Shown here: positions 28,594-49,232 of the stretch, in pieces
Layout of the letters: each line of letters starts with the position of its first letter
How positions within the stretch are numbered: the stretch's first letter is position 1
Origin: Puia sp.
GTDB lineage: Bacteria > Bacteroidota > Bacteroidia > Chitinophagales > Chitinophagaceae
Length of the DNA: 64,000 bases
Direction: 5' to 3'
Assembly: GCA_031292515.1 (NCBI GenBank)
Contig: JARLGZ010000269.1
Location: forward strand, 186,001 to 250,000
Made by a program: the position numbers and the translations under genes
The notes under the pieces: generated by a model
The model's input: only the letters and a program-made list of their open reading frames with translations
What the model was told of the DNA's origin: nothing
The model's database searches: none

Positions 28594-28670
28594 GTGAGTG
28601 GTGAGTAGACATATTTAAGTCTGGATCGTTTATAAAGCTACTGACCACTCACCACTGACCACTCACTATA
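28594..28670. repeat. Dispersed stop-abutting repeat, copy A (hemB-hemL gap)
   Basis: GTGAGTGGTGAGTAG (28594-28608) opposed to CTACTGACCACTCACCACTGACCACTCACTATA (28638-28670); overlaps hemB stop codon. Confidence 0.8.
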
Positions 28671-29637: not shown

Positions 29638-29717
29638 ATCTATATTTTTTAATAGTCCGTCAAAATCTCCAACCTCTAATCTCTATTCTCCAACCCTCAT
29701 CAGCACTCGCCGCTTAT

Positions 29718-29827
29718 TACCGACCACTCACGACCGCCTGCTCACGATCTCTCCCGCACTCAATACTCGCCATCTCTATGTCTTCATCACTACTCACTAC
29801 TGACCACTCACTACTGACTACTCACTA
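29718..29827. repeat. Dispersed stop-abutting repeat, copy B (hemF-hemB gap)
   Basis: Iterated CACTCACTACTGACTACTCACTA units running into the last codons and stop of hemF. Confidence 0.75.
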
Positions 29828-36075: not shown

Positions 36076-37095
36076 ATGACAAACACGAGCAAGCGAGGCA
36101 TCCTTTTAATGAATCTTGGGTCTCCGGATTCGACGGAAACCAGGGACGTTCATAAATACCTGATGCAATTTCTGATGGATGGCCGGGTTATCGACTATCC
36201 TTATCTTTTCAGGAAAATACTCGTGGGAGGCATCATCGTCCCCTTCAGGGCCGCCAAGTCTGCGGAAGCCTACAAGACCATCTGGACAAAAGAAGGCTCG
36301 CCGCTGATCGTCCTCACCAGGCAACTGCAACAGGCCCTGCAGCAACAGGTCGGAGAACCGGTGGAAATAGCCATGCGATATGGCAGTCCTTCGATGGACG
36401 AAGGATTCAGCCGCCTGCTGGAAAGATGCCCGGACCTGGAAGAAGTGCTGGCCATCCCCCTGTATCCGCATTATGCGATGTCTTCCTATGAGACGGCGGT
36501 AGCCCATGCCAGGGAGGTCCACCGGAAAAACAAATACTCATTCCGCCTCGACTTTGTTCCGCCTTATTATAAAGAACCCCATTATCTGCATGCCCTCAGC
36601 GAAAACATACGCCCCTACCTGGAGCAGGAATATGATCACCTCCTCTTCAGCTACCACGGTGTTCCGGGAAGACATATAAAGAAGAGCGATCCGACCGGTT
36701 CTCATTGCCTGCTATCGCCGGATTGCTGCACTATCGCATCCCCGGCACATGCCACCTGCTATCGCCATCAATGCTTTACAACCACCCGCGAAGTCGTTGC
36801 CCGGCTGGGTGTACCCGCCGCTAAATACAGCATCTCCTTTCAGTCACGCCTGGGAAAAGGATGGCTCGAACCCTTCACGGATATCAGGTTGGAAGAGATG
36901 CCGAAAGAAGGAATAAAGAAATTGCTGATCGTATGCCCGGCTTTTGTAAGCGACTGTCTCGAAACGCTCGAAGAGATCGATATCCGGGGGCGTGAGTCAT
37001 TCCTGGGTGCCGGTGGCGAAACATATACCATGATTCCCTGTCTGAACACGCACCCATTGTGGGTCGAAACGCTGGCGGGATGGACGAAGAAGTGA
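36076..37095 (+). CDS. hemH: Ferrochelatase
   Basis: 'RGILLMNLGSPDSTETRDVHKYLMQFLMDGRVIDYP', 'LLFSYHGVPGRHIKKSDPTGSHC', 'SFQSRLGKGWLEPFTD'. Confidence 0.97.
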   Translation: MTNTSKRGILLMNLGSPDSTETRDVHKYLMQFLMDGRVIDYPYLFRKILVGGIIVPFRAAKSAEAYKTIWTKEGSPLIVLTRQLQQALQQQVGEPVEIAMRYGSPSMDEGFSRLLERCPDLEEVLAIPLYPHYAMSSYETAVAHAREVHRKNKYSFRLDFVPPYYKEPHYLHALSENIRPYLEQEYDHLLFSYHGVPGRHIKKSDPTGSHCLLSPDCCTIASPAHATCYRHQCFTTTREVVARLGVPAAKYSISFQSRLGKGWLEPFTDIRLEEMPKEGIKKLLIVCPAFVSDCLETLEEIDIRGRESFLGAGGETYTMIPCLNTHPLWVETLAGWTKK

Positions 37096-37173
37096 GTGGT
37101 GAATGGTCAGTGGTGAGTATTGGTCAGCCCTATATAAGTCATGAAACCTTTATAAAGTCCCTCACCACTCACG
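37091..37173. repeat. Dispersed stop-abutting repeat, copy C (hemH-hemJ gap)
   Basis: GTGAGTGGTGA (37092-37102) perfect inverted match to TCACCACTCAC (37162-37172); begins at hemH TGA stop. Confidence 0.8.
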
Positions 37174-46595: not shown

Positions 46596-46639
46596 CTCTC
46601 TTAACTATATCTCCTAACGCTATCTTTTATCGTCAAAAA

Positions 46640-46682
46640 ACTCCACTCACTACTCACACTCACTACAGACTACTCACTACTA
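46640..46682. repeat. Dispersed stop-abutting repeat, copy D (after transketolase N-subunit)
   Basis: CTCCACTCACTACTCACACTCACTACAGACTACTCACTACTA running into the TAG stop on the minus strand. Confidence 0.75.
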
Positions 46683-47513
46683 ATAGTCTCCCAGAGTCTC
46701 CGGAAGCTGTTCCAGCGCTTTTTTCAATTGCTCATCATTGGGTGCAACGCCATGCCAATTATGATCGTTTTCCATGAAGCTGACGCCCTTGCCCATGATG
46801 GTATGCATCATGATGCCAACGGGTTTGCCCTGCCCGGTAAGTCCTTTGGCCTTATCCAGCGTAGCCACCACTTCATCTATATCATTACCGTTCATTTCCA
46901 GCGTGGTCCAGCCAAAAGCGTTGAACTTTACGTGGAGATCGCCGAGGTCGAGAACTGCCTTGGTCGTACCGTCAATCTGCTGACCGTTCCAGTCTACCGT
47001 GGAGATCAGGTTGTCTACCTTATGGGCGGCGGCAAACATGATGGCTTCCCAGTTCTGTCCTTCGTCCAATTCACCATCGCCATGCAGCGTATATACGATG
47101 TTGTTTTCCTTGTTGAGCTTCTTTGCAAGCGCGGCTCCGATCCCTACGCTCATCCCCTGCCCCAGCGAACCACTGGCGACACGAATACCCGGGAGATGTT
47201 CATGCGTGGTGGGATGGCCCTGCAGCCTCGAATTGATTTTCCGGAAAGTGGCCATTTCCTTGATGTCGAAATATCCCGACCGGGCGAGCGCGGAATAAAA
47301 TACAGGAGAAATATGGCCGTTTGACAGGAAGAAAAGATCCTGGTTCTTACCTTCCATCGTGAAATGAGGATCGTGCTTCAGAACCTTGAAATAGAGGGCC
47401 GTGAAGAAATCCGCACAGCCTAGCGAGCCCCCCGGGTGACCGCTTTGGGCACCATGTACCATTCTTACGATGTCTCTTCTAATCTGCGAAGCGATAGCTT
47501 TCAATTCAGCCAT
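46680..47513 (-). CDS. Transketolase, N-terminal (TPP-binding) subunit
   Basis: 'RRDIVRMVHGAQSGHPGGSLGCADFFTALYF', 'GDGELDEGQNWEAIMFAAAHKVDNLISTVDWNGQQIDG'; 277 aa only. Confidence 0.93.
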   Translation of the reverse strand: MAELKAIASQIRRDIVRMVHGAQSGHPGGSLGCADFFTALYFKVLKHDPHFTMEGKNQDLFFLSNGHISPVFYSALARSGYFDIKEMATFRKINSRLQGHPTTHEHLPGIRVASGSLGQGMSVGIGAALAKKLNKENNIVYTLHGDGELDEGQNWEAIMFAAAHKVDNLISTVDWNGQQIDGTTKAVLDLGDLHVKFNAFGWTTLEMNGNDIDEVVATLDKAKGLTGQGKPVGIMMHTIMGKGVSFMENDHNWHGVAPNDEQLKKALEQLPETLGDY

Positions 47514-47801: not shown

Positions 47802-48959
47802 ATGTGGCTGATGTTTGATGTACTTTTATCTATTGCCATTTCCTTTACCATCACTTTTCTTGCTATCCCTGTGATTATTAATGTAGCAGAGATGAAGAAA
47901 TTATTTGATGTTCCCGACGAGCGGAAGATCCACCAGGCCCCCATCACCCCACTCGGCGGTTTGGGCATCTTTGCAGGCTTTGTATTTGGATGCCTGCTCA
48001 CCATCCATTTTAATGAATCTCCTAATTTTCAATACTTTATAGCTGCTTCACTGGTCATATTCTTCCTCGGTCTGAAAGACGATATCCTGGTTATCAGCCC
48101 CATCAAGAAATTCATCGGGCAGGTGCTGGCCGCCTTCCTGATCATCTATTATGGAGAAGTCCAGATCCGGAGTATGCATGGTTTTTTGGGCATCCACCAG
48201 CTGCCGGAAATGTTCAGTCTGCTCTTGACCTATTTCGCCGTGATCGTCGTCATTAATTCATTCAACCTGATAGACGGGGTCGATGGGCTGGCAGGCAGTC
48301 TTGGGTTGCTGTCATCGGTAGTGTTCGGCGTCTACTTTCTTAGCGCGAAAAGCGCCGCCCTGCTGCCTTATTCCATTATCGCCTTTGCTTTGTCCGGCAG
48401 TTTGCTGGCCTTCCTGATATTCAATTTTCAGCCTGCCAAGATATTCATGGGCGATACCGGGTCGCTGTTGATCGGCACCGTCAACGCCCTGCTGGTCATA
48501 AAATTCATCGCAGTGGCGGGGACGACCGATGTGGCCTATCCGATCACCGCGTCCCCGGCCGTTGGATTTGCCATCCTGATGATCCCCCTGTTGGATACGC
48601 TCCGCGTCTTCGGAATCCGCATCTTCCATCGCAGGTCTCCCTTCAGTCCCGACAGGAACCATATACACCACCTTTTGCTGGACAGGGGCTTTTCACACAG
48701 GGCCATTACCCTGTTACTGGTGTCGATCAATGCATTGATGCTGGGGCTTGCCTTCCTCTTTAGCAACCTCAATTGTACCCTTCTTATCTTTTCGTTTATC
48801 GCGGTCTTCTTCGGGATCATTTCAGCCTTCTACTATATACGCCCTGCACCCCGTTTATTTGTAGCCAGGAGCGGGAAAGCAGAGGACAAAGGACGCAACA
48901 AGTCCTCTAAGCTCGTTTCCCTGACCAATGATACGGTACTGGAGCAGAAAAACAGATGA
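47802..48959 (+). CDS. MraY/WecA/TagO-family glycosyl-1-phosphate transferase
   Basis: 'VINSFNLIDGVDGLAGSLGLLSS', 'KIFMGDTGSLLIGTVNALLVIKF', 'RNHIHHLLLDRGFSHR'. Confidence 0.92.
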   Translation: MWLMFDVLLSIAISFTITFLAIPVIINVAEMKKLFDVPDERKIHQAPITPLGGLGIFAGFVFGCLLTIHFNESPNFQYFIAASLVIFFLGLKDDILVISPIKKFIGQVLAAFLIIYYGEVQIRSMHGFLGIHQLPEMFSLLLTYFAVIVVINSFNLIDGVDGLAGSLGLLSSVVFGVYFLSAKSAALLPYSIIAFALSGSLLAFLIFNFQPAKIFMGDTGSLLIGTVNALLVIKFIAVAGTTDVAYPITASPAVGFAILMIPLLDTLRVFGIRIFHRRSPFSPDRNHIHHLLLDRGFSHRAITLLLVSINALMLGLAFLFSNLNCTLLIFSFIAVFFGIISAFYYIRPAPRLFVARSGKAEDKGRNKSSKLVSLTNDTVLEQKNR

Positions 48960-48960
48960 T

Positions 48961-49232
48961 ATAGTGAGTAGTCAGTCAATAGTGAGTAGCGGAGTAGTGA
49001 GCGCTGGACAGACGGCATATATGTCTGTATTTGCTTCGCCCGCATATGGGTGTCCCGTACTGGGCCCTATAGTCCCATACACACCTGAATACCTGCTACT
49101 CATTTTGGCCCTCCTGACGCCACTGCCTTCAAACTGCCCGCTATTTTTGCGTCCCACTCAATACTCTCCGGCTCTTCATCCCGTTCACTAAATCTTCCCC
49201 CCACTCACTCCTCATCACTGACTGCTCACTAT
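48961..49232. repeat. Dispersed stop-abutting repeat, copy E with 16-bp terminal inverted repeats
   Basis: ATAGTGAGTAGTCAGT (48961-48976) versus ACTGACTGCTCACTAT (49217-49232), 15/16 inverted identity. Confidence 0.8.

Follow-up and report, generated by a model that had tools for sequence, protein, structure and literature searches.

REP/BIME elements and MITEs are dispersed in bacterial genomes, often lie 3' of genes, and may carry inverted arms. The short tandemly repeated repetitive (STRR) heptamers of cyanobacteria form tandem heptanucleotide arrays between genes, and we know of no position rule that relates them to ORF edges. Heptamer repeats have been noted in a few bacteria, with no established cause. 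Rehm et al. (2015; PMC4692102) described intergenic, degenerate heptamers, GGGAATC in two Xanthomonas and GGGGA(C/T)T in Nostoc PCC 7120, which are nearly always nearer to the 5' neighboring ORF. Those downstream of ORFs lie mostly 0-50 bp past the stop codon on the coding strand, some of them overlapping the stop, and GGGAATC in Xanthomonas forms many facing pairs (PMC4692102). The G-quadruplex function proposed for the heptamers of both genera (PMC4692102), that is, a role as G-quadruplex regulators, is the only detailed proposal that we found. MacGregor (2015; PMC4679880) reported TAACTGA arrays in marine Beggiatoaceae, Cyanobacteria, and some Bacteroidetes, mostly a few nucleotides upstream of start codons and in forward orientation. 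Forward TAACTGA arrays stop all three frames and can overlap gene ends only, and reverse arrays are translatable within ORFs (PMC4679880).

The arrays analyzed here are of this known kind, i.e., intergenic heptamer repeats with the polarity of those in Xanthomonas and Nostoc. They were encountered in a 64,000-nt stretch (the window) of a Chitinophagaceae genome, an affiliation that the relatives of its proteins indicate, and their unit is a degenerate tandem heptamer, GTSAGTR, i.e., GT[G/C]AGT[A/G]. The initial annotation had described a dispersed GTGAGTRGT/CAGT family; the family is real, while its longer unit gives way to the tandem heptamer. That it is an unnamed element was half right, as the literature already has heptamers of the same polarity from Xanthomonas and Nostoc and related ones from Beggiatoaceae.

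GTSAGTR shares with the repeats of Rehm et al. the heptamer period, degeneracy, intergenic site, polarity toward the 5' ORF, stop overlap, and facing arms, but differs from them in having no G-run of three. Because perfect units in the unit list lack GGG, a three-tetrad G-quadruplex cannot form from them, and the function proposed for the Xanthomonas and Nostoc heptamers is inapplicable to this unit and thus no explanation for the class. TAACTGA likewise occurs in heptamer arrays, whereas GTSAGTR is another unit and sits at stops in sense. Unlike REP/BIME elements and MITEs, the arrays consist of tandem heptamers with no conserved palindrome or body and no matching transposase expansion. The unit itself, its lack of G-quadruplex tracts, the sharpness of its anchoring, and a rule common to unrelated heptamers are new; anchoring to the nucleotide, in-frame arrays in proteins, and empty sites in sister species go beyond what Rehm et al. 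described. Our literature search found no paper that gives an ORF-edge rule covering Bacteroidota as a whole.

With up to two mismatches, the 13-mer GTGAGTRGTSAGT matched 24 times in the window against 2.0 expected, a count reached in 0 of 100 shuffles. Exact matches genome-wide (7.34 Mb, 285 contigs) numbered 420, compared with 84 for the reversed control. A de novo scan of the spacers of this genome found 36 segments repeating at lag 7 and between 0 and 8 at each of lags 5, 6, and 8-11, and in 35 of the 36 the nearer ORF of the G-rich strand was the 5' one. TAGTGAG presents TAG or TGA in every frame, which bears out the stops in several frames noted at first. Rfam gave zero matches at the gathering threshold for positions 26000-50000 of the window.

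The initial annotation placed the family in the gap between a wecA-like gene and frr (copy E) and in at least four more gaps. Each of the five gaps it listed contains an array that reads the same way as the gene ending at it, the five genes being hemB, hemF, hemH, the transketolase N-terminal half, and the wecA-like transferase gene:

28594..28606, plus strand: distal arm of the hemB element, inverted; hemL starts 38 bp away
28640..28666, minus strand: sense array of hemB (ALAD), in which the first TAG serves as the stop codon (28666-28668)
29719..29825, minus strand: sense array of hemF, with no inverted arm
37092..37118, plus strand: sense array of the ferrochelatase gene (hemH); the TGA stop at 37093-37095 lies within GTGAGTG
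37160..37172, minus strand: distal arm of the hemH element, inverted; the UPF0093 gene starts 16 bp away
46645..46684, minus strand: sense array of the transketolase N-terminal half, after the stop, in a convergent spacer
48961..48987, plus strand: sense array of copy E, after the TGA stop of the wecA-like gene (48957-48959)
49156..49232, minus strand: degenerate inverted arm of copy E, terminating in ACTGACTGCTCACTAT, upstream of frr (start 49330)

Measured from the end of the stop codon, the 5' edge of the array lies at -1 for hemB, -8 for hemF, -4 for hemH, +2 for the transketolase N-terminal half, and about +1 to +4 for the wecA-like gene. Within the window, an inverted distal arm is confined to the hemB, hemH, and wecA copies (the left piece of the copy at 28594-28670 and the right pieces of the copies at 37091 and 48961), where it faces the start of the neighboring gene; the hemF and transketolase copies are one-armed. 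The hemB protein has lost about two residues, with relatives ending in LLNK and this protein in ML before the stop. At hemF, the array contributes the codons AGT GAG (SE) ahead of its TAG, and relatives end about 2 aa sooner. Between the hemF array and the hemB start, a GA-rich heptamer-like stretch at 29640-29700 (minus strand GGTTGGAGAATAGAGATTAGAGGTTGGAG) may be an older or different array.

Placement was assessed in about 1.22 Mb of the genome, taken in stretches, with genes from a home-made hexamer-based caller whose calls were validated against orthologs only, and with arrays defined as merged matches with at most one mismatch. There were 78 arrays in this sample, 71 of them intergenic, and 58 of the 71 had a same-strand stop as their 5' neighbor. 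The 5' edge was between -18 and +18 nt from the end of the stop codon in 52 of these 58, and 55 lay within 50 nt of the stop; the commonest offsets were -1, -4, -8, -15, +2, and +4, with the stop often inside the array. The 3' ends of arrays were scattered and, with one exception, at least 25 nt from any ORF. Random placement and orientation in the present spacers gave 9.4 ± 2.6 stop-anchored arrays, with a maximum of 20 in 5000 trials, compared with the 52 of 71 observed. Convergent spacers have a stop at either edge, and promoters play no part in them; there, 20 of 22 arrays were nearer to the stop of the gene read in sense. Divergent spacers held just two of the 71 arrays, though they make up 149 of 800 spacers. 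Oriented placement specifically at gene ends, as claimed from the window, is strongly supported by the stop-anchored and convergent counts, and both enrichment and orientation bias at stops hold beyond the window. Unit match also falls with distance from the stop, which is partly circular and no proof because the arrays were defined from the matching end.

Array-bearing genes are biased toward the G-rich strand, which is presumably the leading one: 37 of 45 lie on it, compared with 61% of genes (P = 0.003). A long run of minus-strand arrays on contig C28 had prompted the idea of replication polarity, which was rejected as the sole cause since convergent pairs bear both orientations within 200 bp. 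The leading-strand preference remains as a second effect.

We give about even odds (probability roughly 0.5) to the reading that the arrays are recent insertions of a species-specific heptamer, and that a DNA-level process sets their G-rich strand flush at an ORF edge and pointing away from it, in this genome mostly at 3' ends. Of this reading, the insertion relative to sister species, the flush 5' edge, and the polarity are established by the data, and the process of addition is inferred. Each array would be new DNA, added at a gene end or close to it in a unit set by the species, and would decay downstream after addition, while purifying selection on coding sequence and promoters would fix the permissible end points. 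The edge might be recognized by sensing transcription or translation, or repeated additions might be halted by selection at the coding boundary. A conserved gene-regulatory role would be unnecessary. The leading-strand preference counts against addition at gene ends, as targeting of gene ends alone does not predict it.

Most relatives in the same genus have zero exact unit matches. At all five window junctions, two genus-mates (G009 and G002) have the same gene neighbors and no array, so that the empty orthologous sites sought since the initial annotation are present. The hemB-hemL spacer is 1 nt in G009 and 110 nt here, and that of G002 carries extra sequence; in genus-mates, the hemF-hemB spacer is 13-27 nt (234 here), the hemH-UPF0093 spacer 9-12 nt (93 here), and the wecA-frr spacer about 40-94 nt (370 here). 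The transketolase-ftsX spacer is 43-58 nt, with an intrinsic-terminator-like hairpin in two genus-mates, and here (46596-46679) it is 84 nt with an array in place of the hairpin. Proteins of the nearest species compared are about 70% (hemF) to 89% (hemB) identical, which is too distant for a target-site duplication to be read at the junctions. The arrays were gained after the split from genus-mates of the same gene order, and how a DNA process finds a gene end is therefore testable with strains and mutants. Of the genus-mates, G002 has a heptamer of its own, GCTTGYA, and G015 has a 167-nt hemF-hemB spacer (L106) that is made up of one long inverted repeat, ATTGTCAGAACCGGGATTTGTCTGAACTGGGATG plus its complement, and apparently represents another type of spacer-filling element.

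Native spacer lengths in two relatives were available for 89 gene pairs, nine of them array junctions. Those of the array junctions were not longer than the others and often measured 1-36 nt. With the shorter relative, seven of the nine were at most 36 nt against 0.26-1.65 expected by length (P ≤ 5e-5), and with the longer relative, where the test is weak, three of nine against 0.22-1.11 expected (P 0.001-0.09). The use of short native junctions implies that arrays go to gene ends and not to free space.

The 16-bp terminal inverted repeats first reported for copy E were confirmed in both coordinates and match, ATAGTGAGTAGTCAGT (48961-48976) pairing with ACTGACTGCTCACTAT (49217-49232) at 15/16 positions. 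Such ends could belong to a MITE or other small transposon with heptamer-array termini that is mobilized in trans, and the inverted arm found in the same spacer at 16 of 51 stop-anchored arrays points the same way, as does a 66-nt near-copy of the hemB element, 95% alike, at the radA stop (G000:C137:178176-178241, G000 being the genome under study). We regard a transposon as distinctly unlikely, however, given that the copy E body (48985-49215) is single-copy in the genome, most arrays are one-armed, and unit order is not common between arrays. A MITE with a homogeneous, conserved body, one form that the MITE-like element first suggested could take, is rejected for copy E. If arrays are added at gene ends, both genes flanking a spacer could receive one, and the two arms would then form a facing inverted pair; this would account for the ends of copy E with no need for a transposon. 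The composite element shared by hemB and radA is evidence against addition at gene ends, since some spread by copying does occur. With this one exception, spread by copying of whole arrays was rejected, as there is no excess of shared unit words.

Because the arrays would end spurious frames as well, array genes were compared with their orthologs. Orthologs were available for 18 of them, and every one of the 18 ended no more than 8 residues from the native C-terminus, 14 of them within 3, while exact agreement was rarer at array genes (6/18) than at controls (94/162; Fisher P = 0.08). The C-terminus of ferrochelatase differs by a median of about 8 residues over 22 relatives and by 1 from the closest relative.

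Seven of the 78 arrays lie within called ORFs, six of them antisense. The antisense array is an open frame, LTTHHSLLTT, and intragenic arrays are in frame; the sole sense one lies between fused E1 alpha and beta parts. Judging from sequence, we take the proteins with intragenic arrays to include Mfd, a KDO transferase, and an AraB-AraD fusion, and one array appears to have joined araB and araD into a single 953-aa ORF. In methionyl-tRNA formyltransferase (Fmt), the array lies between two domains that both match solved structures, and the stretch that contains it, about residues 189-225, has no such match. In-frame antisense arrays form linkers within proteins at G000:C33:120807-123668 and in Fmt at G000:C81 (locus L049). 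These intragenic arrays show that coding selection filters the survivors and that conserved genes have genuinely gained sequence by insertion.

This reading-frame filter would also be expected if ordinary simple-sequence slippage acted on chance seeds and selection sorted the products so that they survive only in non-coding DNA; purifying selection is clear, and the intragenic arrays are in frame and mostly antisense. Slippage is nevertheless improbable, as arrays at lags 5, 6, and 8-11 are rare, array sites do not track the available spacer length, and 3' edges are almost never flush with ORFs. The order of units is not shared between arrays above chance, and adjacent units are less alike than shuffled ones (0.244 vs 0.304), and both observations speak against simple slippage and against a master array as the source of copies.

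The sense orientation, the flush position at stops, and the stops in all frames would equally suit a selected 3'-UTR element, in which a G-rich RNA past the stop, whether or not an inverted arm follows, would protect the mRNA, offer a site to an RNA-binding protein, or insulate translation and would be kept only in sense. The elements with an inverted arm (16/51) fold well, with a median z of -4.5, but one-armed arrays reach a median z of only -1.1 against -0.4 for controls. Orthologous genes in sister species do without arrays, and stop codons are absent from several heptamers of this class. In G035, a genome from another genus of the same family, GTGARTG arrays touch stops (-15 to +29 nt) and, in antisense, start codons (3 to 9 nt), and those in antisense just ahead of starts are about as frequent as those at stops. 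We therefore hold a selected 3'-UTR element to be unlikely.

An intrinsic terminator was rejected, since one array lies between rplN and rplX inside a ribosomal-protein operon and most one-armed arrays fold near background, barely above shuffles; a general role in RNA 3'-end formation, one of the functions first considered, is likewise unsupported. A stop-codon cassette was likewise rejected as a general function, and so was translation insulation, given the heptamers without stops. At five G035 loci (L203, L210, L212, L219, and L220), a GTGARTG array leads into a repeated body and then inverted GAACAAG heptamers, and this composite of two heptamers is dispersed through that genome.

Unrelated heptamers were found in 80 hemB loci, chosen regardless of repeats and scanned blind to the unit. 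Their spacers held 53 lag-7 arrays, compared with no more than 10 for each of the other lags between 5 and 11, and the units were unrelated (GTGAATG, AGTTAGG, GTCGTGA, AGGGAAC, AGGAGTC, and others). The 5' edge of the G-rich strand was the one closer to an ORF in 43 of 52 (P = 2e-6), with 25/30 in Bacteroidota loci and 18/22 in cyanobacterial loci. The rule is that heptamer arrays begin near the edge of a reading frame and run away from it on the G-rich strand, and in the genome under study this edge is mostly the stop. The cyanobacterial loci obey the rule, and intergenic tandem arrays of heptanucleotides are what the arrays studied here have in common with STRR repeats. Since unrelated arrays in two phyla have period, polarity, and ORF-edge contact in common, sequence-specific regulation is unlikely and a shared generating process likely.

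The shared edge-of-gene rule points to one unexplained process across phyla. It is very doubtful that this is a single conserved machinery in Bacteroidota, Cyanobacteria, and Xanthomonas, which would place species-specific heptamer tails (templated, by telomerase-like synthesis or templated break repair) at the edges of translated regions and leave genes bounded by outward G-strand arrays. Telomerase-like or break-repair synthesis, in which an enzyme would add G-strand heptamers to 3' DNA ends at intergenic breaks and two outward tails would be joined head to head, has little chance of being correct for the arrays. Two-armed spacers, with the G-strand running inward from both ORFs, have the structure of such fused ends, and the unit differs by species while the period stays at 7, but neither a candidate enzyme nor a template RNA was found, and reverse-transcriptase counts do not separate array-rich from array-poor genomes.

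No enzyme for array addition at gene ends was identified among the reverse transcriptases and Y1 transposases, whose counts do not track the arrays. There is one Y1_Tnp in the genome under study and 1-5 in each of the other nine genomes, i.e., no more here than in array-poor relatives, which speaks against a REP/RAYT origin for the element that the initial annotation called REP-like. Expansion of a reverse transcriptase or Y1 transposase as the agent was rejected for lack of correlation with arrays. A pair that was considered and set aside lies at G000:C4:13176-14086 (L231 and L232), where a partial reverse-transcriptase ORF adjoins an IS200-like Y1 transposase.
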